Assembly (NCBI GenBank): GCA_947561715.1 | Contig: OX387197.1 | Coordinates: forward strand, 18,646,266-18,710,265 | DNA: 64,000 nucleotides | Direction of reading: 5' to 3' | DNA from: Ascidia mentula | Taxonomy: Eukaryota > Chordata > Ascidiacea > Phlebobranchia > Ascidiidae | Part shown: positions 1 through 44,800 of the stretch, one piece after another | Layout: every line of letters starts with the position of its first letter | How positions within the stretch are numbered: position 1 is the stretch's first letter | Program-made: the position numbers and the translations under genes | The notes under the pieces: model-generated | Seen by the model: the letters and a program-made list of their open reading frames with translations, nothing else | Database searches by the model: none | Told to the model about the DNA's origin: nothing

Positions 1-2292
1 AAAACCATATGATTTTCATGACAACAAATAGTAAAAAAGCCCCCAAACCTTCTGCTTTTTCTGAATTTCATCAGAGAGAACTTTAGAGGAATCGAGGACG
101 ACAATGGCGCTTTCATCTTCCAGGATGTTGCCTTCTGAGGATGAAAGTGTGTAAAGAATCTTGTCCTCAATCTCCTTCAGTTGCTTTTTGTTGGAAGCGC
201 TCTGCAGAATCAGGAGGTTTCTTTCCTCCTCCAGCTCTGGTCTGTTTAATAATTGCAATAGAAACTTAACGGCCGTGTACAATTTGGTTGATAGCTTAGA
301 AGCATTTGTCATAAGTTCGAAATTTTAGCGTCCCTTATTAAACTGGTTGAGTTAAAAGTTTTTACGGACAGTTAAAATGTTAGTTGCATGGCTGATATCA
401 GAGTTTTACAAAGTAAAAGGCAGTCTCGCATGTTAATCAACTTGAGAATTTTACAATAAGCCCAAAACTAAAGTCACTTTTAAACAACCTTATCACAATT
501 CTTATCACCTGTCATTGAGTACAGTTTATTCATGTTTAACAGCAGAATAAACATGAAAAAACACTTTACAGAAGGTATAAGCACTTCTAAACACTTTTTT
601 CGGTAAAATATGTTTCCGCAATCTGTTAAAAAAATGTCTCACCTCTCCTTGGCAACCACGATTCCGAGAAGTTGATCTTCCAAACCCTCTGGGGTGATCA
701 TGAAGTTGAGGAGGGAAACTTTGGTGGAAAGCTCCGGGAGATAATGAGGATTGCGGAGTTTGGTGGTGATGTAGAAACGGAATTCAGAGCTGTATTCGAT
801 TACATTTTCACCGAGTCTAATGCACATCACACCACCTGTGCGAAAACCGCGAGTAAAAATAATTGATGTACGTAACTCATTCAATTAATAGTACTGATGA
901 TGAACGCAGTTAGTGTTCGAAACGTCTACTCCACTTAAGATGATTAATAGCTTATTAGCTTTGGCTTTCCTATTCAAAGAATATTTGAATTTGGTTTTAA
1001 AATTACCTGAATTCAATCATATACCGAAAATGTAAACGCATTTGCCCGAGGGTAAAGTAATCATTAATCAACAATGTATTGAGATTTTCACTTAAAACTT
1101 AATATTAACTAAAATTAAATTATTAATTGTTTATTGCCACTGCCGAAGGTTAATCGTTATGCATTGGGTTACACTGTGCTGACATAAGTAAAATACACCC
1201 CCGTTACGAGAACATCCAAAGCGCTTAAACACCTTGTTTGAATGTCTGCTTCAGTAGCAGAGGTTCCAACGACGGATCCAACTCTTCGGCGACGTTTTCG
1301 AGTAGCACGGGTGTCCCAAACTGAATGGAGTTCTCCATAACCCGCATGTAGTCAGCGTTACTCAACTTGATAACACTCAGTTTGTTGTCGCGTTCAGAAT
1401 TTTTCACCCATTTGTTTGCTTGGCCCTGAGGGTCGATCATCAACGGCCTGTGTAGAAAAAAGCAACGTTTGGTATAATGGTGGTGAAAATGACTTTTAGT
1501 GTAACAAATTTAAAGCTTTAAGATCTTGTACGGTCTGAAATATTCTCGCCAAAACGTTTGGACGTCGACTATTTTCGACCTACGCTTGTGTTATCAGGCA
1601 TTGTCCGCTGCTTTCGACCATTATAGTAACCTGAATACTGGCGATCGAAACTTGCATTTAAACCAATCACAAGAAATAATTTAGTGCAACATGAAATGGT
1701 TTTTATGTTTGTATAAAAATCACTCGGTACAAACGTCAAAACATTCTAGTAATAACACCGTCTTACCAACGACGGGAATTGTCCACGATCACCCCGTTGT
1801 CTATGGAGAAATTATCCGTTGGAAGCCCAGCAATATTCCATGCCCGAATCTTAATCAGGTCACCCAGGGTTGCGCTGAGGGAGAAGTTGTCCGAGCACGT
1901 GATTTCGTGTTGCTGTTACGTCACAAAGAAACACATCAAACAATCATTGTAGTTTCGCAGCAGCACACTATGTACTATAAAGGCAATGTTATAATCGGTG
2001 TAATACCTGACACGATTTTGTCCAATCGTTTGTACATCGTTTTCGGAAACCTGCAGTGAAGGCTCCGAGATATGCGATGACTCCAGAAGAAATAAGCACG
2101 TCGCCTGTTTGTATTAAATGTTAGTGTTAAGTTGTAAATAGACCATGGGTCAAGTTATAATGGAAAACATACCCGTAAGGTTGTCGTATTGAGTTTGCAG
2201 ATCCTTGGCCGCCTGCGTCCACCTCGTCTTCTCCCCGCCTAAACCTCCAATAAGTTTCTGAGCTCGATCCAACTTTTTGGAACACAGGTCGA
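1..2292 (-). other. Dynein strut, AAA5 and start of the AAA5-AAA6 region
   Basis: The exon near 2175-2292 is the strut ([16 protein letters not shown]). The exon down to about 1990 reads [17 protein letters not shown]. Exon 1767-1912 reads [19 protein letters not shown] and its AG/GT ends are clear. Exon 1230-1445 begins [15 protein letters not shown], the exon from about 870 reads [18 protein letters not shown], and the last exon (about 50-300) has [15 protein letters not shown]. This is AAA5 up to the linker before AAA6, where the window cuts the gene. Confidence 0.9.
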
Positions 2293-5200: not shown

Positions 5201-8200
5201 TTTTTGTTACATTTCTGTTGTTTTTGTTCTATAGACTGACTTCAAAAAGATTGAACTTTACTTTACAGTTCAAAAAATATATTTTTATTTTCTAATAAAC
5301 ACGCGAGCTTTCGCGAGTTCCTCTCGCTTCATCAGGTGTCACAAAACTGATACGGTTTATTATATATGTACATAAAAAGATTGAAATTTGTATTCGAAGT
5401 GAGATTGTAGATAATAAAGGTTCGGCAACCTCCATAAGTTCCTGCTTCTCATCGACGGCAAAGAGGTTTGCCACTTCACCAGTATTCAGGAGACTGTCAA
5501 CATCCTCCAGGAAGGATTCGTCTTTGATCTGAGTGTCGGTGAGAAGGAAGACAGTTTTCTTGCCCTGCGCCCCAGCTCCTCGGAGTAGAGTCTGTGAATA
5601 CATTCGGTCGTAAACGAGGAACAAATGACGTAAGATTATAAAAATAAGGTTTCATCGAGCAAAGTTGCAATTACAAAATTATTTGATGTAGACGACAACA
5701 AGTGGGCTTAAAGACAGGAAATCCAGACGACTCATTTTGATGTTGAAAACATCATTTATTTTTGTATTTGTTTGTGTAATACAAAACCTTTCATCCTTAA
5801 CATTTATTAAATAGCAGTGGTATTTCCCAAATGGCATCAGTGCTAACCTGCCGCTAATTAACATTTAAGGCCGCCTTGACATTAACCACCATGCATTATA
5901 ACAAACTATTCGCATGACAACCTACCTTGAGGTCCTCTTTCCACTCTGGAATGCCGTAACTTTTCGAAATCTCCGGTTGGAAGATGATCATTTCGGACAT
6001 GGCTGCGGCCAAACGTGTGAGAGATTGGCGGCCACTTCCACCGACGCCAACCAAAAGGGCGTTGCCACCTGGTGACTTCAACACACGGGAGATACGCGAC
6101 AAATGCTCCAGCAAATATCTAGACGAAAAAAATCAAACGTAAGTTTTTGTGGCTAAGTTAACAGAATATGTACTCGGCGCCTTAAAACCTGTAACGAGTG
6201 TGTCAAAATACGAATATGCAAATATAATGTTGCTGTTGCTGCCAGGCATATTATATTTTAACAGTCTGTTCTTCTGGACCATTACCCTGAGGAAACCTTG
6301 CTGGATGGCAGGCGAAACGTCGGTGAATACAAGTTACGTTTTAACGTGTCAGAAGAACAGAATATTAAAAAAGCACCTGAATACGACGAGGTTCATTTGC
6401 GCCTTATGGGTCTGGTTGTATTCGTCCAAGCTTAGTTGGACAATGTTGGTGAACTCTTCGATGGATTTAACTTCCTCGTACATTCTGTCCTCTCCCTGGG
6501 CGTCGATGTTCATGTAGTCGCCAAACACCAGGGATCTCATGTCATCCTCGCACAGCTGTAGACACCGAAACGCTCCTTTTAGTAGATTCCAACGCGAAAG
6601 TGCATTCTCCATTAACTAAGTGTGCTCAAACTGTTACGTTCGAAACCTTAACCAGGCCGCTATGTAATAGTTGCTGTAACATTACCGGCATGCCAGGTTG
6701 GGCAAGGTGTTCAAACAAAGTGTCGTAATTCTCCTTGAAGTTGTCTTTCACCAACGTTCTTGTCAAGTTGTAAAGCCACGTCCGGTCGCTGTCGTCCACC
6801 AAACGATCGTAAAACACGCGGAAAACCTCGTGCACGAAAAGTCTGTGAAACACAGAGCGAAACATAATAAACTTCGTTGTCATTTCCCTACAGTTCTTGC
6901 GAGCAGTCAGTAACATTTATAGGTGGACCATTTATGCTGATGGGTATGCGATGTAGTTTTTATATGTTGTACCTGATAAAAGTTTTCTTGTTTTCGATTT
7001 TTTCCTTTTTAATCACCAAACAACCCAGCACCACACGTGAGAAATCTCTCAGGTTGAAAGTGTAGTGGGATTTTGCGGGAGTGGGAAGAAGGTTCTCCAT
7101 CGCCTCCTTGTAAACCTGGCGATCGCAAGCAAGAAATAAGTGATGGCAATTAACATTGTTCACGGAAAAAAGTTAGGTTTCCCAAAAAGGATTAAACAGT
7201 ATTTGTCAATATATTTGTCTTCACTGTATTTGTTTTAAATACCAAAGTGACTGATTTTAACTCGAAAATAAATGATTCCGTTCTTGTGGTACAACAGTAC
7301 GTAACAATCAACATTTTATAAAACTCTTTGGCGAATACAAACCCCACAACTATATTATACGTCACTCCTCATGCTTACGTGCGTGGTGGCGCTGACAATT
7401 TGCTGCGAGATAACGAGCAAGTCGCTCGGAAATTCGTGAGCCTTCATGTGAAGCGACATCAGGGTGCTGAATATCTTAACCATGGTATCGTCGTTGAATT
7501 CTAGGGTTGATACGATGTTGAAATGACGCATGAAGCGTTGCGTCACCACGTTGCGAGCGCCGCCTGGTGGACCCATGGCTGCTACTATTATGACGTCAAC
7601 CAATGAGATCTTTGTCGTGTCTTTTAGGTCGTACCTGTTTGATGGAGTTGGTCGACCATTCAATGTTTTGGATCGATTCATATTTTTAAAAACGAACATT
7701 TAAAAAAACGCAAAAACGCTTTTTAAACAACTTTGCTACCTTCCATGAATTAAATGTGTGATTTGAAGTAGTAATGTTTCATGCAATCGCATGATTGACA
7801 GGACCGCCACACTGCGCAGGTCCTTACTTGGCGATCACAGCTATCGTAATTTGAAGTATATTCGTTGAATATAATTATCGTACCAGTTTCCGTGGTCAAA
7901 ATATTGCCGCAGGAGTTCGATTGGGGGTTGAGCTCCGTAAACTTCCCTGGCTGGCATGTTCATGTCGTCAACGAAGATCACGCATTTCTTACCCATTGGG
8001 GGTCCATAAACACCTGCAAACACATAACAGATGCACATAATTGCATATGTGGGATGCAGAGAGATTCAAATAACAGAATACAACTAAGCACCTTTACGCC
8101 TCTTGTCGAGCTTGGACATGATGAGACCTTGCGTCTGGTTCGCGGTAGTTTTAGCCGAGAAGTTAACAAATGCTGGTAGATATTTGTCCTGGGGTAGGTT

Positions 8201-32831: not shown

Positions 32832-35800
32832 TGCGTAAAACAACGCGAGTTTATATAAATTCGAAAATTTCGTTTGTGTTTTACAAAAACTCTACTTAAT
32901 ATTTACTTGTAACACAGGAACACAACGACTGCAAACATGCAAGTATACATTATCCTCGTAGTTTCATAACGATGTATTGCAAGTATAGAAAAGCGAATTC
33001 CTGTTTTTTGAAAACGGATATTACATACTGATATTCTGGTCCTCCACAAGATGGACTTTCACTGTTGCAACGGTGGCTGTGGTGGTGAGTGGGGCTTCGC
33101 GTCGTTTACGGTTGGAAGGGCAGCTCTGAAAAAAAAATGGTTGCTTATAGCAATGTGCAATACAATTTGTTATACTTCGTCACAAACACTACCACGTTCC
33201 AATCAGCCTGCACTCAGTGTTTATTCCTTTTTCGTACCTTGGTGCATGTCGGACTGCTCTTGAGACACAAGCTTGCAACGCAATGGATGAAGATGTAATC
33301 GTCTCCAGGTGTAAGCCATCTGAAAACTGTGAAACTGAACAGGAAACTTCCACTGCTGGTGTTATGGATCGTTGCAGGAATACCGTTTTGTGCCAAGCAG
33401 CTGATGTGAAGAAAAAAGATAAAATAGTACGTTTTTCGTTACAATAGCAGGTCAAAAATAGAACGATTTCTGGGATGAAGTGTTATTTTGCATTGCAACG
33501 GTGTTATTTTTTGAGCAAATTTGCCTAACTATTTACTTAGGTTTATTTTTTGTGCTGTTAAAAAGTGTTTAATTTCACAGTGATTGAAAAAAAAAAAACA
33601 TTTCTGTCCCGAGTGGAGAACTGCGACGGTGGGCGAACTCATATTTACGCAAATTGTTTGTTTCAATAAATTAAAATAATTTAATAATCTGTTCTTCTGG
33701 CATAAAAAAAAGGTAACTTTATTCCGACGTTTCGCCTGTTATCCAACAAGGCTTCCTCAGGGTAATGATCATTACAAATAAACATGATTGGGACGTTGAT
33801 CTATTGCGTACAGAAGCTTTGTTTAGTTGCGAAACGAAATTGTTGCGAAGCGAGTATACCGTGTATATAAGCGGTAATGTCACACCCGGTCTGAAATAAA
33901 TATAGGACAGACCTTAAAAACTTCAGCAGATTAGGCATTGGGCATGTATACAACAGACCTACGTGGAAACTTACTTTTTCTCGATGAGCACAACATCAGT
34001 GGGGTTATTTGCTGTGTAAACTGCATCACTGGACGCTACACATTTATCGACATGCAGCATCATTTCACTTGGTATAGGATTGGTAGCGTTGACCAAAACA
34101 AACATTTGTTGAGACACACGGACAGTGGGCATATTTGCAAGAGGTGTGGTAAGTTTATCATCATCGTACAATTTCAGTTCGATGTTGAAGGTGACAACTG
34201 CACTCAGATCTTTCGTATCATTTCTGTATGGCGAGGGAAAAATATTTTATCCAAGAGCATGGTTCTACGTGTTTATTGCTTTCAGAGCGCCTGGTTTGTG
34301 CGTATTTGAAACACACTAAACTATGTGGATGATATTTAATTGCATATCATGGATTTTGGGGAGTTCAAACCAAACAAAATTATGTCAACGAAACAGTCGT
34401 TATGTCGAAATTTTTGCTCGATAATACAACTATTCAAATACAACGTTATATTGAAAGATTAAGCTAAATATGATGCGTACAAAATTATAAGGCCTTTTCT
34501 TTCAAAACAAACAACTTACTTTCCAAAAAAAAACAACTTACTGGTTAACAATGGGTTTAAAGCCGTTAGATAAGATACTCTGTTCCAAGCTGGACGAAAA
34601 ATTTCCTCCGTAAGTACAGGATACATTGAATAAGGGAATGGCGTAAGACAAGAGGAAGGAATGGTTGAAGATGTCGGCATAGATCTCACCTTTTACGATT
34701 GTTACGTTACCCATTTGGTTGACCATTATCCCACAATTCAGGAATGGTACAGCCACAAACAACCTGCAAGAAAAACGACGTGTCTTTTTATGAAAACATT
34801 TGCAAAAAAAACAAGCAGGATTGTAATTTACCGAAATACTGGAATTCCGGCGGGGTTCAGTGTAGTTGTCATACTACTGCAATTCGAGATGTTTTGAAAT
34901 CCGTAAAAAAACACAACCTTTGTATTGTTGCTGGTTTGGGAAAAACTGGACTCCAAAACGCTCAAGGCCAGGTCCACCGTCATTCCAGAAAGATTACAGT
35001 TGATAGTGGTTGCAGCGGCTGTGGTGGGGCCGGCAGTGGTTGCAGCGGCTGTGGTGGGGCCGGCCGTGGTTGCAGCAGCTGTGGTGGGACCGCCCGTGGT
35101 TGCAGCGGCTGTGGTGGTTGCAGCGGCTGTGGTGGGGCCGGCAGTGGTGGGGCCGGCAGTGGTGGGGCCGGCAGTGGTGGGGCCGGCAGTGGTGGGGCCG
35201 GCAGTGGTGGGGCCGGCAGTGGTGGGGCCGGCAGTGGTGGGGCCGGCAGTGGTGGGACCGGCAGTGGTGGGACCGGCAGTGGTGGGACCGGCAGTGGTGG
35301 GACCGGCAGTGGTGGGACCGTCAGTGGTGGGACCGGCAGTGGTTGCAGCGGCTGTGGTGGGACCGGCAGTGGTTGCAGCGGCTGTGGTTGCAGCGGCAGT
35401 GGTTGCAGCGGCAGTGGTTGGGCCGGCAGTGGTTGGGCCGGCAGTGGTTGGGCCGGCAGTGGTTGGGCCGGCAGTGGTTGGGCCGGCCGTGGGGGGACCG
35501 GCCGTGGTTGGGCCGGCAGTGGTTGGGCCGGCAGTGGTTGGGCCGGCAGTGGTTGGGCCGGCAGTGGTTGGGCCGGCAGTGGTTGGGCCGGCAGTGGTTG
35601 GGCCGGCAGTGGTTGGGCCGGCAGTGGTTGGGCCGGCAGTGGTTGGGCCGGCAGTGGTTGGGCCGGCAGTGGTTGGGCCGGCAGTGGTTGGGCCGGCAGT
35701 GGTTGGGCCGGCAGTGGTTGGGCCGGCAGTGGTTGGGCCGGCAGTGGTTGGGCCGGCAGTGGTTGGGCCGGCAGTGGTTGGGCCGGCAGTGGTGGGACCG

Positions 35801-38800
35801 GCCGTAGTTGCAGCGGCTGTGGTGGGACCGGCCGTGGTTGCAGCGGCTGTGGTTGCAGCGGCTGTGGTTGCAGCGGCTGTGGTTGCAGCGGCTGTGGTTG
35901 CAGCGGCTGTGGTTGCAGCGGCTGTGGTTGCAGCGGCTGTGGTTGCAGCGGCTGTGGTTGCAGCGGCTGTGGTTGCAGCGGCTGTGGTTGCAGCGGCTGT
36001 GGTTGCAGCGGCTGTGGTTGGGCCGGCAGTGGTTGGGCCGGCAGTGGTTGCAGCGACAGTGGTTGGGCCGGCGGCTGGTTCAGTTACTCCTTAAAAATAA
36101 AGGTTTTCATATAAACGTCGTATTTCACTCAATCACATGCTGCAACTGAGGTGTGTGTTGTCTTACCGCAGAGAAATCGTTGGAATGGGCGAGCAAGGGT
36201 TGTGGCAAGGTTTTGAAGATCCGTGTACAGAACAAAATTTGCATGGGTTGCCAAACTTTGCAAATATGTTTGATTACTTGCCAAAAATCCTATCGATCCA
36301 AAAACAAGCGGACAGACATGAACAAAATTAAACCACAATTTTGTTGTTTGTGTTCATTAGAGTACGTACCTAATGCAAATGAAGAACCTGTTCCCTGTAA
36401 AGCAGTGCGAAGACCTGCCATTTCTGCTGATACGTCGGGCATAAAAGAAGTGGTTAACACAAGGAACGTGCGAAACGGAGTGCCCTTTATCAGTTGTAGG
36501 GATTTGCTCAGTGAAGCTTTGTAGTGGGTTTGTGACAAAGAGAATGTAGGTAAGCTTTCAAACGCAAGGGTTTTGATATGCTGCCAGAAAAAAGAGAGTT
36601 GAAAAATGTATACCTGAATAAAAACTGGTATAGTGTTTGGCTTGTTTATGAATAATTATCACATACAAGATTCGTTAAGTAAGGTGTAATTTAGGCTTGT
36701 TGACCGCTTCAAACTTCGCCATGGCATTAACGTTAAAACACTTACTCAATACTCCAATCCTAGCACTACCAAATGCGTTTTCAAAAATAAAATAAAAACC
36801 CCGCTATCAACAATATACGATTTTGTTCATTATACAGGGCTACAATCGCAACAACAAGTAATTTTTGAAACACATACCGCAAGTGTTGCTGTCTTGTTGG
36901 TAAAAGACTGAGGTGAACCCGGACTGATTACAAAAGTGAATGTGATATTTTGGGCCCGCGTAAGTGTGACCATTATTGTCAGAGCTTCCTGCAGCTTTGG
37001 CCATAACGTAGTGTTTGAAAACCTTGCAAGAACGAAGATGACCTAAACCAATATCCTTGGTTACTTAGGTTGTGGTACATTTTACTTCTGAAAAATTTTA
37101 TTGGATAGTGATTTTAACTTTTCGTTACCTCAACAGGGGTATTAGAAGTAAAATACACGGATTCTTTTTCACAGATGACAGGCCTATTATTCGTGCAAAC
37201 ACCATCAAGTATTGTAAACGCTCTCGGTCTCGGTATTGCTCCTGGTTTGGGGCTAGGCCAGTGCGTGGGTAAGGAGGTTTGCTGTTGAGTGTCATCGTAA
37301 TGTCCGCAGATGTCGAATCCGGATGCTTGGACGGCGGGGATCGTTTCGTTGTTGCTGGATATAAAAACGTATCGTTACCATGTAAGTACAAATATCGTTT
37401 CCCTTTTTCCTGGCAACTCCCGTCACGCAATATTCGAACAATAGCCCCGTACAATTGGTGTTGTAATGTCAAAGTATCAAGTTGCATCACTCCTAAAATG
37501 GGAGTACACTTACTACCAACGGTAGACATTTTCATGTTTCTTTCTCTGCAAGCCCACGTAGGGATGTGGTTCAGCGAGCTCCTGAGAATCGACGAGGCTA
37601 GCCACGACGAACTTTTGTGAAGTCTTGCTGAGAACCGCTGGCGTTGAGGCGTTGCACACGCCCCCGGCAAAATAGTCAGCAAAGGAAAATGTTTGCTGCA
37701 AGCTGGACTGAAAACAATCTTGGCCAGCCAACGTCCACCCGATTTCGCAAAATTCTGAGAAAAGGAAAGGTGGGCGAGGTGTACAAGTGTATTAAAACAT
37801 TTATTAAAACAACGGATGCTTCGTTGCCGCCTATTTTGCCACTAATATTGTTACAGCTCTCTAAATTGCTATTGGTGTTGGTGTTGGTGTTGGTGTTGCA
37901 GCTCTGTGAACACTGCGGAACTTGGAATTATAATGGTTGGACTGTATACATGTTTCTAACACCAACACAAAACTATGGTAATTTATTCAGAAGCATATAC
38001 TACTAAAAGCTATCGGAATCCAACTGCTGCTCAACTCACTACAAGAACAATGGCTTAATCCCACTTCTTTGCGCAGGATGTTGCTTCCGGTCGTAGTAAG
38101 CATTACGTTCCTACTTCCCATGTGTTGCGTTCCGCATCCAAACAGCGCAGAGTAGATGGAATAGATGTCAGACACCAGCATCAACTTTTGCCATACTGTG
38201 ATACCACCGATGTACCCTGCAAGTTGGGGTTGGGGTTGAGAAGAATAACATTATATGCGTATTATTCGTTTTTCCAACACGTGTCCTCAAGACGAAAGCA
38301 AGCAAAATCAGCATAGTAAAAATAGATAAAAACTAAAAAATAACTTTCATATTATTGGCTCCACATTGCTTATCATATGATTATTGTGACACGGGGCCTG
38401 ACGGCACTATTGGTTGAGCTTGCTTGGCCGTAGTGTTTCCACCTTGTTTGCTCCGCAAGGTTGCACCTAGTTTGGTGCCCAACGGATGACGGTGACTGTA
38501 TAGTCACCACAAAGTGGAAGTCTTTGCTTGGCCGTTTGGTCAGCAAAGTCGTCTGATAGTCACACCAGCTGCACTGATGAGACCTTTTTTTAGGTCGAAA
38601 CAGTGGCCATCTGTCTGCAGCTTATACATAAAAAATAACTCTTTCGACCATTTAAGGAGAAAATGGTACAATATATTGTCACCTAATATCGGTTCTGGCT
38701 GATCGGCCAAATCGGTCACGACAGTGTTATTTTGGGAAACACCTTTTGGATTACATGAGAGGTCACTGTGGAACCCCAGTGGAGAACCCCTTGTATAAGA

Positions 38801-41800
38801 TAGGCAGACACCTCAACCAAGAATTGTGTTAACAGACCGTGAGCAAAATGTTCTAAATTTTCATTTACTCACCTGAAAAGCACGACTGGTTGGTGTCCAC
38901 AGAGCAGTAAGCGATGCGAAACGATGTATTTGCAGCCATCAAGTTCGTGGCTGCCGCATAAACCGTCGTGGCTACTTTCAAAGTGAAATTAAGGCGGAAT
39001 CCATCCACATGATAACTTATGCTGGAACTTCCTTCGCCGTGTATGCAGAAGTGGTGCCAATAGCGCCGGGCAATTGCATCCTTTGACAGTGCCACAGATG
39101 AAGCGATCTGCAGGAAAGATTGCCATAGACATAAATGCACAATAAAATAAAAAATTGCTCATTTGTTGCTTGTTAGTAAACCTTTTGTTATCGCGCAATT
39201 TTTGCCTTGACGGAGGATATGCAAACATAAACGGAGACAATTTCTGTACCTTGGTTCCGTTGAGGAAGGAGAGCTCAAAAATCTTACTCCCATTATTGTC
39301 GGCCTCCCGCAGAAGCGTCAAGCTGCCCCCAGCGCTTATCATCACAGTTGGCAACATCACCGACGAGGAGTTGTGAGCTCGAAACCAGAAGCATAATGTG
39401 TGCGGGTGGTGGGATGTCATCATCGTAGTAGAAATACACATAGGAACTCCGATCCACGAAGAAGATAAAACTGTTGCTTGGCTTTGAACTTCGTAGCGGG
39501 GAAACGTTTCCTGCAACTCCGACGGAATTGAGTTGGACTGATCTGAATACGCATGTACATCTTAGGGAATAAAGTTTAATAAATTTCGAGATTCTAAAAT
39601 CGTAACTGCATAAACCACTCCAGTAAAAAAAGTATAGATGTTACTGTCTGTGTCTTATGGTATTAGATGGATTTAACATGCAGTGCGCCTGAAACCGGGT
39701 GTTCCCCAGGCGACTAAAAAATACATGCGGGTGCTGAATGGCTTTGTGTATTGGTTTCACTTGATATGGGCAAAATAAGATGCTACGATCAAAACCACTT
39801 ACTAGATGCCAGACGAAAAAGCAACACAACTGCTGGGCCATTATCGTTCAACGTGAACCCGTTGCTGTAGGAAAATAGACCTCCAGTAATTGCGCTGCGG
39901 AGTACATATGATTGGGAAGCAGCGTTTTCCACCAGAACATGCCAAGGATGATAACTGAATACATTGCAACAACATAGAAAATTGTTTATTTTCCCCATAT
40001 TCGCTATGCGCAGTGAGAACAATTTATTTACCCATATTTGCTGTCCACAAAGAAAACAGAAGAATCCGCCAGAACGTTAAGCCAGAGATCGCACTGGTTG
40101 CCATTGGGACACCCTCGTGTCGAACGCACTGCAAAATGCTGGCCGAGATTGATAAGTTGCATGGCTATAGACGATGTGGATCTAAAAGAAGAATCGGTGA
40201 CGTAGTGCACGTATCTAAACCGAAAAAATAACAAACAGAGTTGTACTTCCTATTACAAAGTGCAAACTTTGCTACAATATCGATGACGTCGACGTGAATG
40301 AGGGATACAAAAATATGCGAAATAATCTAGCAATACCTCTTTCTGAATGTCTTCACAGCTTGGTTGTTTCCAGTATACAGTAGCTCTAAGTTGTCAGAAG
40401 ATTCTAATGCATAATTGCCCGTTTCCACCGGCACTGGAACTTCACACTTTTCGCCAGCAAAACCGTTCGCGCACTGACATGTGAAGTTGCTGTAAAGATG
40501 AATGTTGCTATTTGGTTAAGTTCTTTTATGACGAACACCACAGCATACCGAAAATTTAGAAAATGTTTATTTTACTCACATTGCATGCTACTAAAAAGTT
40601 TATAAATCACTTCCATCAAATGTCAATGTTAAGCAACGTTACCTGTTGTTTCCGGTGCATGTTCCACCGTTCTGACACTGAGAACATGGTAGCGGTGTCG
40701 TGACCGCAGCAGTAGCGGTCGCACCAGTCGTGGCCCCTGCTGTAGTGGTCGCACCAGTCATGGCCCCTGCTGTAGTCGTTGCACCAGTGGTCGCTCCATT
40801 CGTGGCCCCTCCTGTAGTCGTTGCACCAGTAGTCGCCCCAGTCGTGGGCCCTGCTGTAGTCGTTGCACCAGTGGTCGCTCCAGTTGTGGCCCCTGCCATA
40901 GTGGTTGCAACAGTCGTGGCCCCTGCTGTAGTCGTTGCACCAGTGGTCGCACCAGTCGTGGCCCCTGCGATAGTGGTCGCTCCAGTCGTGGTCCCTGCCA
41001 TAGTGGTCGCTCCAGTCGTGGCCCCTGCCATAGTTGTTGCAACAGTCGTGGCCCCTGCTGTAGCCGTTGCACCAGTGGTCGCTACAGTCGTGGCCCCTGC
41101 GATAGTGGTCGCTCCAGTCGTGGCCCCTGCTGTAGTCGTTGCACCAGTGGTCGCACCAGTCGTGGCCCCTGCGATAGTGGTCGCTCCAGTCGTGGTCCCT
41201 GCCATAGTGGTCGCTCCAGTCGTGGCCCCTGCCATAGTTGTTGCAACAGTCGTGGCCCCTGCTGTAGCCGTTGCACCAGTAGTCGCTCCAGTCGTGGCCC
41301 CTGCTGTAGTCGTTGCACCAGTGGTCGCTACAGTCGTGGTCCCTGCGATAGTGGTCGCTCCAGTCGTGGCCCCTGCTGTAGTCGTTGCACCAGTGGTCGC
41401 TACAGTCGTAGTCCCTGCGGTAGTGGTCGCTCCAGTCGTGGGCCCTGCTGTAGTCGTTGCACCAATGGTCGCTCCAGTCGTGGCCCCTGCTGTAGTCGTT
41501 GCACCAATGGTCGCTCCAGTCGTGGCCCCTGCTGTAGTGGTCGCCCCAGTCGTGTGCCCTGCTGTAGTCGTTGCACCAGTGGTCGCTCCAGTCGTGGCCC
41601 CTGCGGTAGTGGTTGCAACAGTCGTGGCCCCTGCTGTAGTCGTTGCACCAGTGGTCGCTCCAGTCGTGGCCCCTGCTGTAGTCGTTGCACCAGTGGTCGC
41701 TCCAGTCGTGGCCCCTGCGGTAGTGGTTGCAACAGTCGTGGCCCCTGCTGTAGTCGTTGCACCAGTGGTCGCTCCAGTCGTGGCCCCTGCTGTAGTCGTT

Positions 41801-44800
41801 GCACCAGTGGTCGCTCCAGTCGTGGCCCCTGCGGTAGTGGTTGCACCAGTGGTCGCTCCAGTCGTGGCCCCTGCGGTAGTGGTTGCAACAGTCGTGGCCC
41901 CTGCTGTAGTCGTTGCACCAGTGGTCGCTTCAGTCGTGGCCCCTGCTGTAGTGGTTGCAACAGTCGTGGGCCCTGCTGTAGTCGTTGCACCAGTGGTCGC
42001 TCCAGTCGTGGCCTCTGCGGTAGTGGTCGCTCCAGTCGTGGCCCCTGCTGTAGTCGTTGCACCAGTGGTCGCTCCAGTCGTGGCCTCTGCGGTAGTGGTC
42101 GCTCCAGTCGTGGGCCCTGCTGTAGTCGTTGCACCAGTGGTCGCTCCAGTCGTGGCCTCTGCGGTAGTGGTTGCAGCAGTCGTGGCCCCTGCGATAGTGG
42201 TCGCTCCATTCGTGGTCCCTGCTGTAGTTGTTGCACCAGTGGTCGCACCAGTCGTGGCCCCTGCGATAGTGGTCGCTCCATTCGTGATCCCTGCTGTAGT
42301 CGTTGCACCAGTGGTCGCACCAGTCGTGGCCCCTGCGATAGTGGTCGCTCCAGTTGCACCAGTGGTCGCTCCAGTCGTGGCCTCTGCGGTAGTGGTTGCA
42401 GCAGTCGTGGCCCCCGCTGTAGTGGGCGCACCAGCAGTCGTCGCCCCAGCCGTCGTGGTCCCTGTCATTATGGGCTGTCCGGTTGTGGTCCCAGCAGTTG
42501 AGGACGCTTTACTGGTGGGCCCAGCCATTGTGGGCGCTTTAGTAGCGGACCCAGTCGTTGCGGGAGCTCCAGACGTGGGCCCTGCCGTTGTGGGCGCAAG
42601 AGTCGTGGCTTCGGGTGTTGTAGCCGCTGGTGTCGCGGCATTATTTGTGGTCGCCTGGGTTGTTGCAGGTGCTCTTGTTGTCGCTGCCAAAGTTCCCACG
42701 TCGTTCTGATTCGGTTTTCCATAACCTATCAGTAATATGCGGAAATAAATTTAATGTACTATATACATACATACATGTTACTGTGTTGGAACAGAAACAA
42801 CAGCGCACCTGTTAAGTTCAAATGAATGTATTTCATAGCACCGGGGTGAGCAGCTGTAGCAACACCGCCCAACGCAACCACCTGACTTCCAAAAGTGCTC
42901 CCGTTTTTCATGTAATACACGTTCGGTTGGTTAACGGTAAAATAAACAGTATCCGAACCACGTTTGGTGGTGCTGCTAGAGATTGGTAACCAGTTTGTGA
43001 TGCTGGTTCCCAAACCGTAGATTTGAAAATCTGGAAAGAGTGCAACCAATTGTTTCAAAAGTTACAAGGAAATTTAATTTCGCTGTGAAATGGAATCTTC
43101 TACATTCGCACAAAACTAAAATATTTACGAAAGTGCACAAAGTTTCGCAGCGTTCCGTTTCTCGCACTGTTCCCGGAAGCAGTGACCAGTGTTCTCACCA
43201 TTTGGTTTGTCCGTAGCAAATGTGGCCGCGTACTTCCAGAGAGGTTTGAATGCCGCAAAGCTGTAGTATTCGGTGTACGATCGCACGCCAGGAATGATGG
43301 TCATGTAAGGATATCGCGTTGGAGTGCTTGCCACTCGAGGTCGTACAGCTTGCCTTGCGCGTGGGTGTGGGTAAAAGTGATAGGGAGCACCTCTGTACGC
43401 TAAAATTCAGTTTGTTACAAGCAAGCTAAGTGGTTAAATAAGCAACAATACAAACAGGAGTTCGTGCAATGGAGTGTGACCGTATCAGTGCATAGCAGTT
43501 TACAACTGAACCAAAGAGTATATTGAAGTTGTTTTTCTACGCTTGTGTTTGCACTCCCTGTAAAACGATTTTTTAATCGCTTTTTGTTATTGGCTTACCG
43601 TTACTTATTCCACTTTTGCCGAGAACCACTGGGAAAAAAATCTCGTCACTTATTAAATGAACAAGGCTGTCGGAATCCATCATCACGTCCTTGTGTGAAA
43701 AGGGACTTACGGTGGTAAAGTTGGTCGCAAAACCAGTCCGAATCTGGGAACAAGTTTTGTGCTCACTTTATCTTAAATTAATCCAATCCAGAGATGCGGC
43801 AAACACACTTTTAACCACGAAGGTTTTTGTTTTATCGTTAGTAGCTGTTTGCTGGTAAAACTACCTTCTTTATTAGGCTACATCAACAGCGATTAAAAAC
43901 GAATTCCCGCGGCAAATTTATCGTCAACTCAAAAAATACAAATAAAAAACGGTAGTAAATGCACTTACCACAACGGTTGTTGCTAGTTTGTAGGCCAAGA
44001 TACGTATGACTATGCCATTTCCTCGAGAATCTAAATTAATGACATATTCTTTGTCCCATAGTGAAACAGGGAGCAACTGTTCGGCCATGTAGTCCGTCGT
44101 TATGTCCTCGAAAGTGTTGTGAGGAACCTAACACAAAATGGTATACAAATGTAAAAGTCACATCGCAAACACCAGCATGTAACGTACTATAGTATTTTGA
44201 TGCAATCGCGGTTGGAAAAAATTACACAGTATACAATTTCAGCTTGAGGTTAAATTTACTCACCTTAGCGTCGAGCATTGCACTGATCACACTTATTGGG
44301 TGATTTGAGGTCACTCGAATTCCTGTTAAGTCGTACATGGCCGAGCAAAGGCCCTGGCCCGCGACCAAATGGACGCTGTTTGCGCTGGATAAAGTAACGT
44401 TGATGATTTGTCCGTCAGTCATTGTAATTTGCATCGTTGTGTTTTGGTAGAAGCTCGTCAATATGATGAAGGTTAATCGGGAGGAGTAAGAGGCTATAAC
44501 GTAATCAGAACCCCAAGCACAAAGAGGAAGGACAGCGAACGAAGCCATTTTCCTGACGTACGACAAAATTGTATTAAGTGACATCACTTAACAAAAATAA
44601 AAATTACCCTGTGGAAATCGAGGTAACAAGAGCAACGGCTTGAAATGTGGCACCAGTGGTTATGACGACACCCTTGGCAGTCGGGTTTTTTACGTCGGAG
44701 CGGACAGGATTTAACTTCATGCTTGAAGGTACCATGTAAGTCCAAGTGGGGAAATTCATTTCGATATTGCTGATGGTTTGGTTCGTCATCGTTCCAACGT

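Follow-up and report, generated by a model that had tools for sequence, protein, structure and literature searches.

The locus and its retrozyme copy

The window, that is, the whole stretch of 64,000 nucleotides analysed here, contains a one-unit retrozyme copy on the plus strand (38346..38628), delimited by alignment to the family unit and measuring 283 bp after trimming of the duplication. Flank comparison places it between two 12-bp target-site duplications, both reading TAAAAAATAACT, at 38334..38345 and 38629..38640. The alignment runs from unit position 18 round to 17, and the 3' end of the copy falls at what we term start site A (38624..38632, plus strand), ~13–17 nt past the predicted cleavage site of the hammerhead ribozyme (HHR) that it carries; four bases, TAAA, are common to this end and the duplication. 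The copy differs from the family majority at one of 266 compared bases, and additionally has three T residues more than the usual family copy in the loop of stem II. Because of this near-identity, it is taken to be a recent insertion and not a relic.

The copy lies in single orientation within an apparent intron of a minus-strand gene (37754..38873, bordering bases included), the limits of which were judged by eye from splice-like signals: a donor-like site at 38873/38872, which would put the upstream exon's final base at 38873, and an acceptor-like site preceding 37754, where the downstream exon would begin. The protein piece encoded by one exon of the window shows 90, 79 and 71% identity to pieces from Phallusia mammillata, Clavelina lepadiformis and Ciona intestinalis, respectively, which identifies the host as an ascidian. 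Nearby minus-strand frames match the Pfam families IgGFc_binding (44225–44587) and Zona_pellucida (33974–34246), and we infer that these frames belong to one gene. The exons with these matches are surrounded by two large, coding-like minisatellites (35005–36072 and 40697–42597; periods 15, and 42/72/114), whose minus strand is Thr/Ala/Pro-rich and mucin-like.

The initial annotation had described an intronic ribozyme from a mobile or domesticated element, transcribed opposite to the host gene. The orientation is borne out, the ribozyme being on the plus strand and antisense to the gene, whereas the intron is apparent only. The mobile origin is likewise upheld, by a one-unit copy between 12-bp duplications with hundreds of dispersed relatives; a domesticated intronic ribozyme was rejected, as the copy is young, duplication-flanked, antisense and near-identical to its family. 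There is no sign of a host function, and no ribozyme role in the host gene is implied, because the gene's own transcript would be the complement of the HHR.

Sequence and predicted folding of the hammerhead

A complete type I HHR pattern, with all core bases and three stems, can be read directly at 38567–38622 (plus strand). The 5' strand of stem I (38567..38573) pairs over 7 bp with its 3' strand (38616..38622), and is followed by the core CUGAUGA (38574..38580). Stem II (38581..38596) comprises 5 bp (38581–38585/38592–38596) and a six-T loop (38586–38591), and leads into the core GAAA (38597..38600), the last A of which is A15.1. Stem III is short (38600..38614): the A15.1–U16.1 pair and 3 bp (38600–38603/38611–38614) enclose a 7-nt loop. 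Cleavage is predicted 3' of C17 (38615..38615), and unit positions are counted from the base beyond, such that 38616 is position 1. With its CUGANGA ... GAAA ... UH core, three stems and opening at stem I, the motif conforms to the definition of a type I HHR, and the 7-bp stem I, 5-bp stem II and A15.1–U16.1 pair described previously are all present.

The earlier judgement that such a motif is unlikely by chance is supported by descriptor searches. A strict descriptor, requiring ≥5, ≥4 and ≥7 bp in stems II, III and I, respectively, matched once in the window, counting both strands, and in none of 300 window-length first-order Markov sequences, on which basis a chance motif was rejected; a loose descriptor (3/3/4 bp) matched once in the window and once across all 300 random sequences. 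The bare core pattern, CTGATGAN{6,30}CGAAA, is less distinctive: it occurs three times in the window against 0.27 expected, with the other two occurrences at 894 (plus strand) and 5309 (minus strand). A search of the 64-kb window against Rfam returned no family at the gathering score, and Hammerhead_1 applied to an isolated 86-base stretch gave 20.4 bits (E 0.0045) against a cut-off of 34, a score that falls formally on the refuting side of the check proposed in the initial annotation. A further family locus (L023) and four loci of Penelope-like elements (PLEs), together 34,383 bases, similarly gave no Rfam hammerhead match at E ≤ 1; these HHR forms therefore appear to be generally low-scoring in Rfam. 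When the 56 nt are folded in isolation, the minimum-free-energy structure has stem I (6 bp) and stem II but no stem III, CACUG (which includes the first core bases) being paired with CAGUG in its place; such folding disregards tertiary contacts, and the result still provides no support for the catalytic fold. The HHRs of mussel retrozymes are described in PMC7229834 as lacking most usual loop-contact bases.

The best independent evidence for the HHR is its recurrence: the exact pattern CTGATGAGACCN{2,10}GGTCGAAACAGTGG has 885 matches in the genome searched (195.8 Mb in 79 contigs), 453 and 432 on the two strands, with the caveat that recent copies inherit the motif whether functional or not. 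The reversed pattern, used as a control, gave no match in the whole genome, and the HHR pattern gave none in viral contigs. Covariation in stem II was judged by eye in a sample of 45 matches, 34 of them with letters: counted by pattern, the second pair is kept via a double change in 6, kept as G–U in 16, broken in 11 and unrelated in 1.

The retrozyme family and the anatomy of its insertions

A 521-bp query gave at least 159 matches at 40 or more scored loci, the window included; as the 40 scored loci were drawn from 2046 first-look candidates, these figures are lower bounds. Tandem units measure ~283–286 bp, the family unit being 284 bp with a GC content of 0.475, and so lie inside the size and composition range given for retrozymes (170–400 bp, GC <50%). 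The longest stop-free frame in a tripled unit is 81 aa, considering frame length only, and no long frame encoding a reverse transcriptase and a GIY-YIG endonuclease was found in the unit. Repetition in tandem is seen, the longest of 62 arms spanning 5.9 units, with ~1 unit or less at each of 12 C1 loci; in the two sets described below, target duplications accompany the dispersed copies at 34 of the 40 loci and at 4 of the 12. Overall, the family fits the metazoan non-LTR retrozymes.

The larger set comprises the window and the 39 other scored loci with flanks, and favours long, near-identical copies; the former are over-represented because loci were ranked by their match to the window. Target duplications of 12–16 bp enclose 34 of the 40 loci; of the other six, four have a short duplication or none (L011, L020, L022 and L030), and in the remaining two, L024 and L038, the element itself contains the longest repeat. 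Both orientations are present at 33 of the 40 loci, and in 32 of these the minus units lie to the left and the plus units to the right, the sole two-sided exception being L024 (plus-minus-plus). In line with this layout, inverted HHR pairs within 2 kb among the C1 places listed are minus-left/plus-right in nine cases and the reverse in none. The L030 palindrome, which is without an ordinary duplication, reaches beyond the element, because its two flanks also form an inverted repeat.

The outer ends are fixed relative to the HHR. Among the two-sided loci with a duplication of at least 12 bp (n = 29), 28 have one end at site A (positions 11–19, mean 15.8) and the other at a second site, B (positions 40–49, mean 44.5), with a mean spacing of 28.7 nt; the exception is L019. 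Under a rough model in which each end chooses evenly and independently between A and B, 28 such pairs have p ~4e-9. The seven one-sided loci of this set end at positions 13–23, depending on how the duplication is trimmed. The second set consists of the last 12 previously unsampled C1 places in the list of HHR-pattern matches, taken irrespective of match quality: all are single-orientation copies of up to ~1 unit, mostly truncated, with the outer end at 9–19 by alignment in 11 of the 12 (L082 is odd) and a duplication of at least 11 bp in 4 of the 12. Several of these resemble duplicates of single insertions (L077–L079, L080–L081 and L083–L084), and L034/L035 in the larger set also represent a segmental duplication. 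The 72 outward flanks of 36 loci (33 from the larger set, the duplicate L035 being omitted, together with L084, L085 and L087) have G, T, T and T at positions 1–4 in 37, 57, 57 and 47 cases, respectively; the target is thus roughly symmetric, CAAAC-N12-GTTTG.

The two arms of a palindrome carry the same diagnostic allele in all 76 comparisons at four sites (14, 20, 21 and 21 comparisons), and therefore derive from one template molecule or lineage. The sites (88, 214, 227 and 229) were picked after the variable positions had been viewed; four others were omitted, namely 164 and 209, where 39 of 40 loci have the non-reference allele, 172, for which L028 and L044 are mixed, and the deletion at 39, for which L028 and L032 are. 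At site 214, L032 is mixed within its minus arm. Mixed alleles within loci also occur at unit positions 14, 20 and 23, each time in a single unit, and look like alignment running into the flanks. The arms themselves vary between 0.08 and 5.9 units (62 arms at 33 loci). Where they meet (29 junctions), there is an overlap of 1–7 nt in 20 cases, of 10 or 21 nt in two, none in one, and a gap or extra bases in six. Their inner ends cluster at unit positions ~200–260 (27 of 62) and 0–20 (11 of 62), with only 9 of 62 at 20–140; these clusters are perhaps stops of the reverse transcriptase near the folded hammerhead.

Penelope-like elements resident in the same genome

The same-genome comparison for the insertion signature was made with PLE loci. 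A genome search for GIY-YIG returned 121 matches, of which some fall in open frames as long as 892 aa, and in the list of opposite-strand pairs within 10 kb the arrangement is minus-left/plus-right in 17 of 17. Twenty stretches, representing 19 loci (L056 adjoins L057), were sampled, partly for such pairs; the HHR search covered the sampled PLE loci except L075. Thirteen loci are palindromic PLEs with an HHR near both outer ends, and five (L062–L066) are in single orientation. The former fall into four families, to which we give working labels from frame length or protein motif; Pfam detects RVT_1 and GIY-YIG in the proteins of three of these and GIY-YIG alone in that of the fourth.

All 13 palindromic PLEs have duplications of 12–14 bp and two unequal ends, one short and the other longer by 27–44 nt: 74–75 and 112–117 in family 801 (six loci), 49–56 and 82–85 in family VYFP (four loci), 56–61 and 95–100 in family 892 (two loci), and 59 and 103 in family 876 (one locus). 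For family 892, ends were sought beyond position 50, since an internal palindrome was otherwise picked, and the duplication of L060 does not count as independent evidence because it lies inside a tandem repeat containing 28 occurrences of its sequence. The base flanking the insertion is G in 7 of 8 cases for family VYFP, like the retrozyme, and T in 10 of 12 for family 801, unlike it; the flank patterns GTTT and TGTT number 15 and 14 for the former and 4 and 14 for the latter. A hairpin is predicted both around the retrozyme start sites and around the equivalent region of PLE families, a folding prediction to which we give no weight.

In several of the PLEs (L049, L057, L058, L066 and L067), CUGANGA is separated from stem II of the HHR by one extra base, and stem III is reduced to approximately the A–U pair with a palindromic ACGT or AGCT. 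L056 and L057 (contig C67, ~6.13–6.15 Mb) contain five long-frame PLE copies in an array (two minus, then three plus), with a period of ~2870 bp and 99.9–100% identity where compared. Two further motifs in the window recall these elements. A minimal PLE-type HHR, CTGATGAAGCGAGAGGAACTCGCGAAAGCTC, on the minus strand at 5304–5339 is 88–92% identical over 34–36 bases to the HHRs of the PLE loci L064–L066 and is probably a PLE remnant. For the HHR-like motif CTGATGATGAACGCAGTTAGTGTTCGAAACG at 894–922 (plus strand), the GIY-YIG loci L049 and L052 contain near-identical counterparts and L061 a related one; it is probably what is left of yet another PLE family.

Similarity between the retrozyme and the PLE loci compared was confined to retrozyme pieces lying near PLEs (in L059, L068 and L071), and the retrozyme was accordingly rejected as a deletion derivative of these loci. 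The pieces belong to a divergent subfamily (L059 7585–7846, L071 1614–1770 and L068 100–164), with 71–79% identity over the longer stretches and HHR stem III regions of other sequence.

A possible route of mobilization

We conclude, with a probability of roughly 0.77, that the family is a protein-less, non-autonomous retrozyme of ~285 nt that is inserted by PLE machinery via the two start sites A and B. PLE machinery is the likely mover because the retrozyme has the PLE layout, duplication and one-sided tail, and a tail from two starts of reverse transcription is termed unique to PLEs in PMC11167929. The same source describes, for an anole PLE, reverse transcription beginning at two adjacent internal sites and cutting of both strands, and in rotifer Penelope, according to PMC3846280, one of the inverted pLTRs may carry a tail. 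PLEs have previously been proposed as the partner of metazoan retrozymes, 'a strong candidate' in the words of PMC7229834, which cites there the HHRs in common, tandem copies and co-occurrence. The initial annotation had named retrozymes and Penelope-like elements as alternative sources; the evidence joins both, in that the retrozyme appears to use the PLE mode of insertion and is not itself a PLE. Against this reading stand the irregular loci L019, L024 and L082, and L011, L020, L022 and L030, which are without a clear duplication. The bias of the larger set towards long copies (the second set is wholly single-orientation), the choice of PLE loci partly for opposite-strand pairs, and the finding of no retrozyme–PLE similarity other than the nearby pieces also weigh against it.

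By extrapolation from other animals, a genomic copy would be transcribed, the HHR would cut the multimers and a host ligase would close the circles. The insertion anatomy suggests that a PLE protein, comprising reverse transcriptase and GIY-YIG endonuclease, would bind this RNA and make a staggered double cut of ~12 bp at CAAAC-N12-GTTTG sites. To judge from the end positions, the two freed 3' ends would prime on one RNA, at A (~16 nt past the cleavage site) and at B (~45 nt past it). Both cDNAs would then extend inward for one unit or more before being joined; the product would be a palindrome that has a ~29-nt tail on one side only, whereas use of site A alone would give a single-orientation copy, often truncated; the window copy, of one unit, would be of this kind.

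LINE twin priming yields target-site duplications, 5' truncation and an inverted 5' part from two primers on one RNA; to our knowledge, it neither starts at two fixed internal sites of the RNA nor leaves a one-sided tail. Mobilization of the retrozyme by a LINE-type element in this manner, instead of by a PLE, would account for the duplications, truncation and internal inversion, and the literature still lists LINEs as possible partners (a 2024 review has 'LINEs or Penelope-like retroelements'); we nevertheless consider it improbable, given that the tail from two fixed starts, seen at 28 of 29 retrozyme loci and in 13 of 13 PLE palindromes, is the feature that PMC11167929 describes as PLE-unique. 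It is still harder to see the palindromes as products of DNA rearrangement, namely inverted duplication within satellite arrays, with no insertion at all. Palindromes are common products of DNA repair, the inverted flanks of L030 would suit such an origin, and some loci are indeed later segmental duplications (L034/L035, L077–L079 and L080/L081), but a single direct duplication of 12–16 bp around the whole structure at 34 of 40 loci, and ends that are fixed relative to the HHR, are not predicted by rearrangement. Least credible of all is that the hammerhead stands alone in the intron, has been domesticated there or is a fold arisen by chance: the sub-threshold Rfam score and the non-catalytic minimum-energy fold would be in keeping with it, but the strict descriptor found nothing in 300 random windows against 885 genomic matches of the exact pattern, the copy has the flanks, orientation and near-identity described above, and the same family is found with duplications at unrelated sites, which speaks directly against this reading.

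If insertion is by PLE machinery, the template may be circular or linear. A circle is plausible by analogy with other retrozymes, and metazoan retrozymes elsewhere are described in PMC7229834 as accumulating in this form. Tentatively, and at odds somewhat short of even, we propose that a hammerhead-made RNA circle templates two DNA primers at once, the lapping cDNAs being joined head to head into palindromic tandem arrays, and that the same may happen on HHR-circularized PLE RNA. If true, a single step would account for the pseudo-LTRs, tandem copies, inverted parts and tails of PLEs, and animal retrozymes would be PLE parasites. Alternatively, and with a similar likelihood somewhat below one-half, the PLE machinery may use a linear multimeric or read-through transcript, the HHR only trimming the RNA or being incidental. 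HHR mutants of the anole PLE are described in PMC11167929 as without effect on insertion in vitro, and its authors favour unprocessed RNA; moreover, the genomic arrays are uniform, so a multimeric transcript explains the shared alleles too. Stops at site A (positions 4–18) occur in 10 of 43 cases on the first return and in 1 of 29 on the first pass (p 0.04), but a length-based count gives 3 of 29 for the first pass (p 0.22) and the second return has 0 of 11, which makes this roadblock test weak for a circle; the one-lap excess additionally needs caution because locus selection requires an arm of ~1 unit. Against a linear template, the window copy closes on itself, starting and ending at one place in the unit, one-unit copies and arms are recurrent in the 40-locus set, and copies in the C1 sample are mostly single and truncated, so that there is little multimeric source.

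The anatomy of these insertions turns the question of the mover into a defined test, with one protein, one ~285-nt RNA, two predicted starts and one predicted target motif. The retrozyme insertions carry the two-start signature that biochemistry has assigned to a PLE reverse transcriptase, and it is the longer ones that point to the mover of ribozyme elements in an animal genome. The role of hammerheads in PLEs was 'still a mystery' in a 2020 review, and the compact retrozyme could serve as a substrate for addressing it.

Comparison with known systems

Among ascidians, nine type I HHR loci are described for Didemnum vexillum in PMC8704543. The metazoan non-LTR retrozymes of Cervera and de la Pena (2020; PMC7229834) share with the present family a type I HHR, a monomer of ~170–400 bp with GC <50%, tandem units, duplications of >4 bp and the lack of an LTR or evident coding frame. 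To these, the present family adds palindromic minus/plus arrays, paired starts and a one-sided tail (the word 'inverted' is absent from the main text of PMC7229834), and the C1 sample consists mostly of single, truncated copies, not tandem ones. The LTR retrozymes of plants are similarly non-autonomous and HHR-bearing and are thought to pass via RNA circles, but differ, according to the same source, in having a type III HHR, LTRs, 4-bp duplications, a size of ~700 bp and Gypsy as their proposed partner.

The PLEs with GIY-YIG, as portrayed in PMC3846280 and PMC11167929, have in common with the retrozyme HHRs near the outer ends, a head-to-head inverted layout and a one-sided tail of ~30–40 nt. 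Their duplications resemble those of the retrozyme in size, measuring 8–10 bp in rotifer cases (PMC3846280) and 12–14 bp in the PLEs studied here. Unlike PLEs, the retrozyme has no reverse transcriptase or endonuclease coding and a unit of only ~285 bp. Stem III is short in its HHR; the PLE HHRs of this genome are minimal forms with an extra base before stem II. Within the open-licence PMC papers searched, no account was found of retrozymes inserted as palindromes or bearing a PLE tail. Relative to the literature searched, what is new is a PLE-type insertion signature in a retrozyme family, found beside the matching signature of PLEs resident in the same genome.
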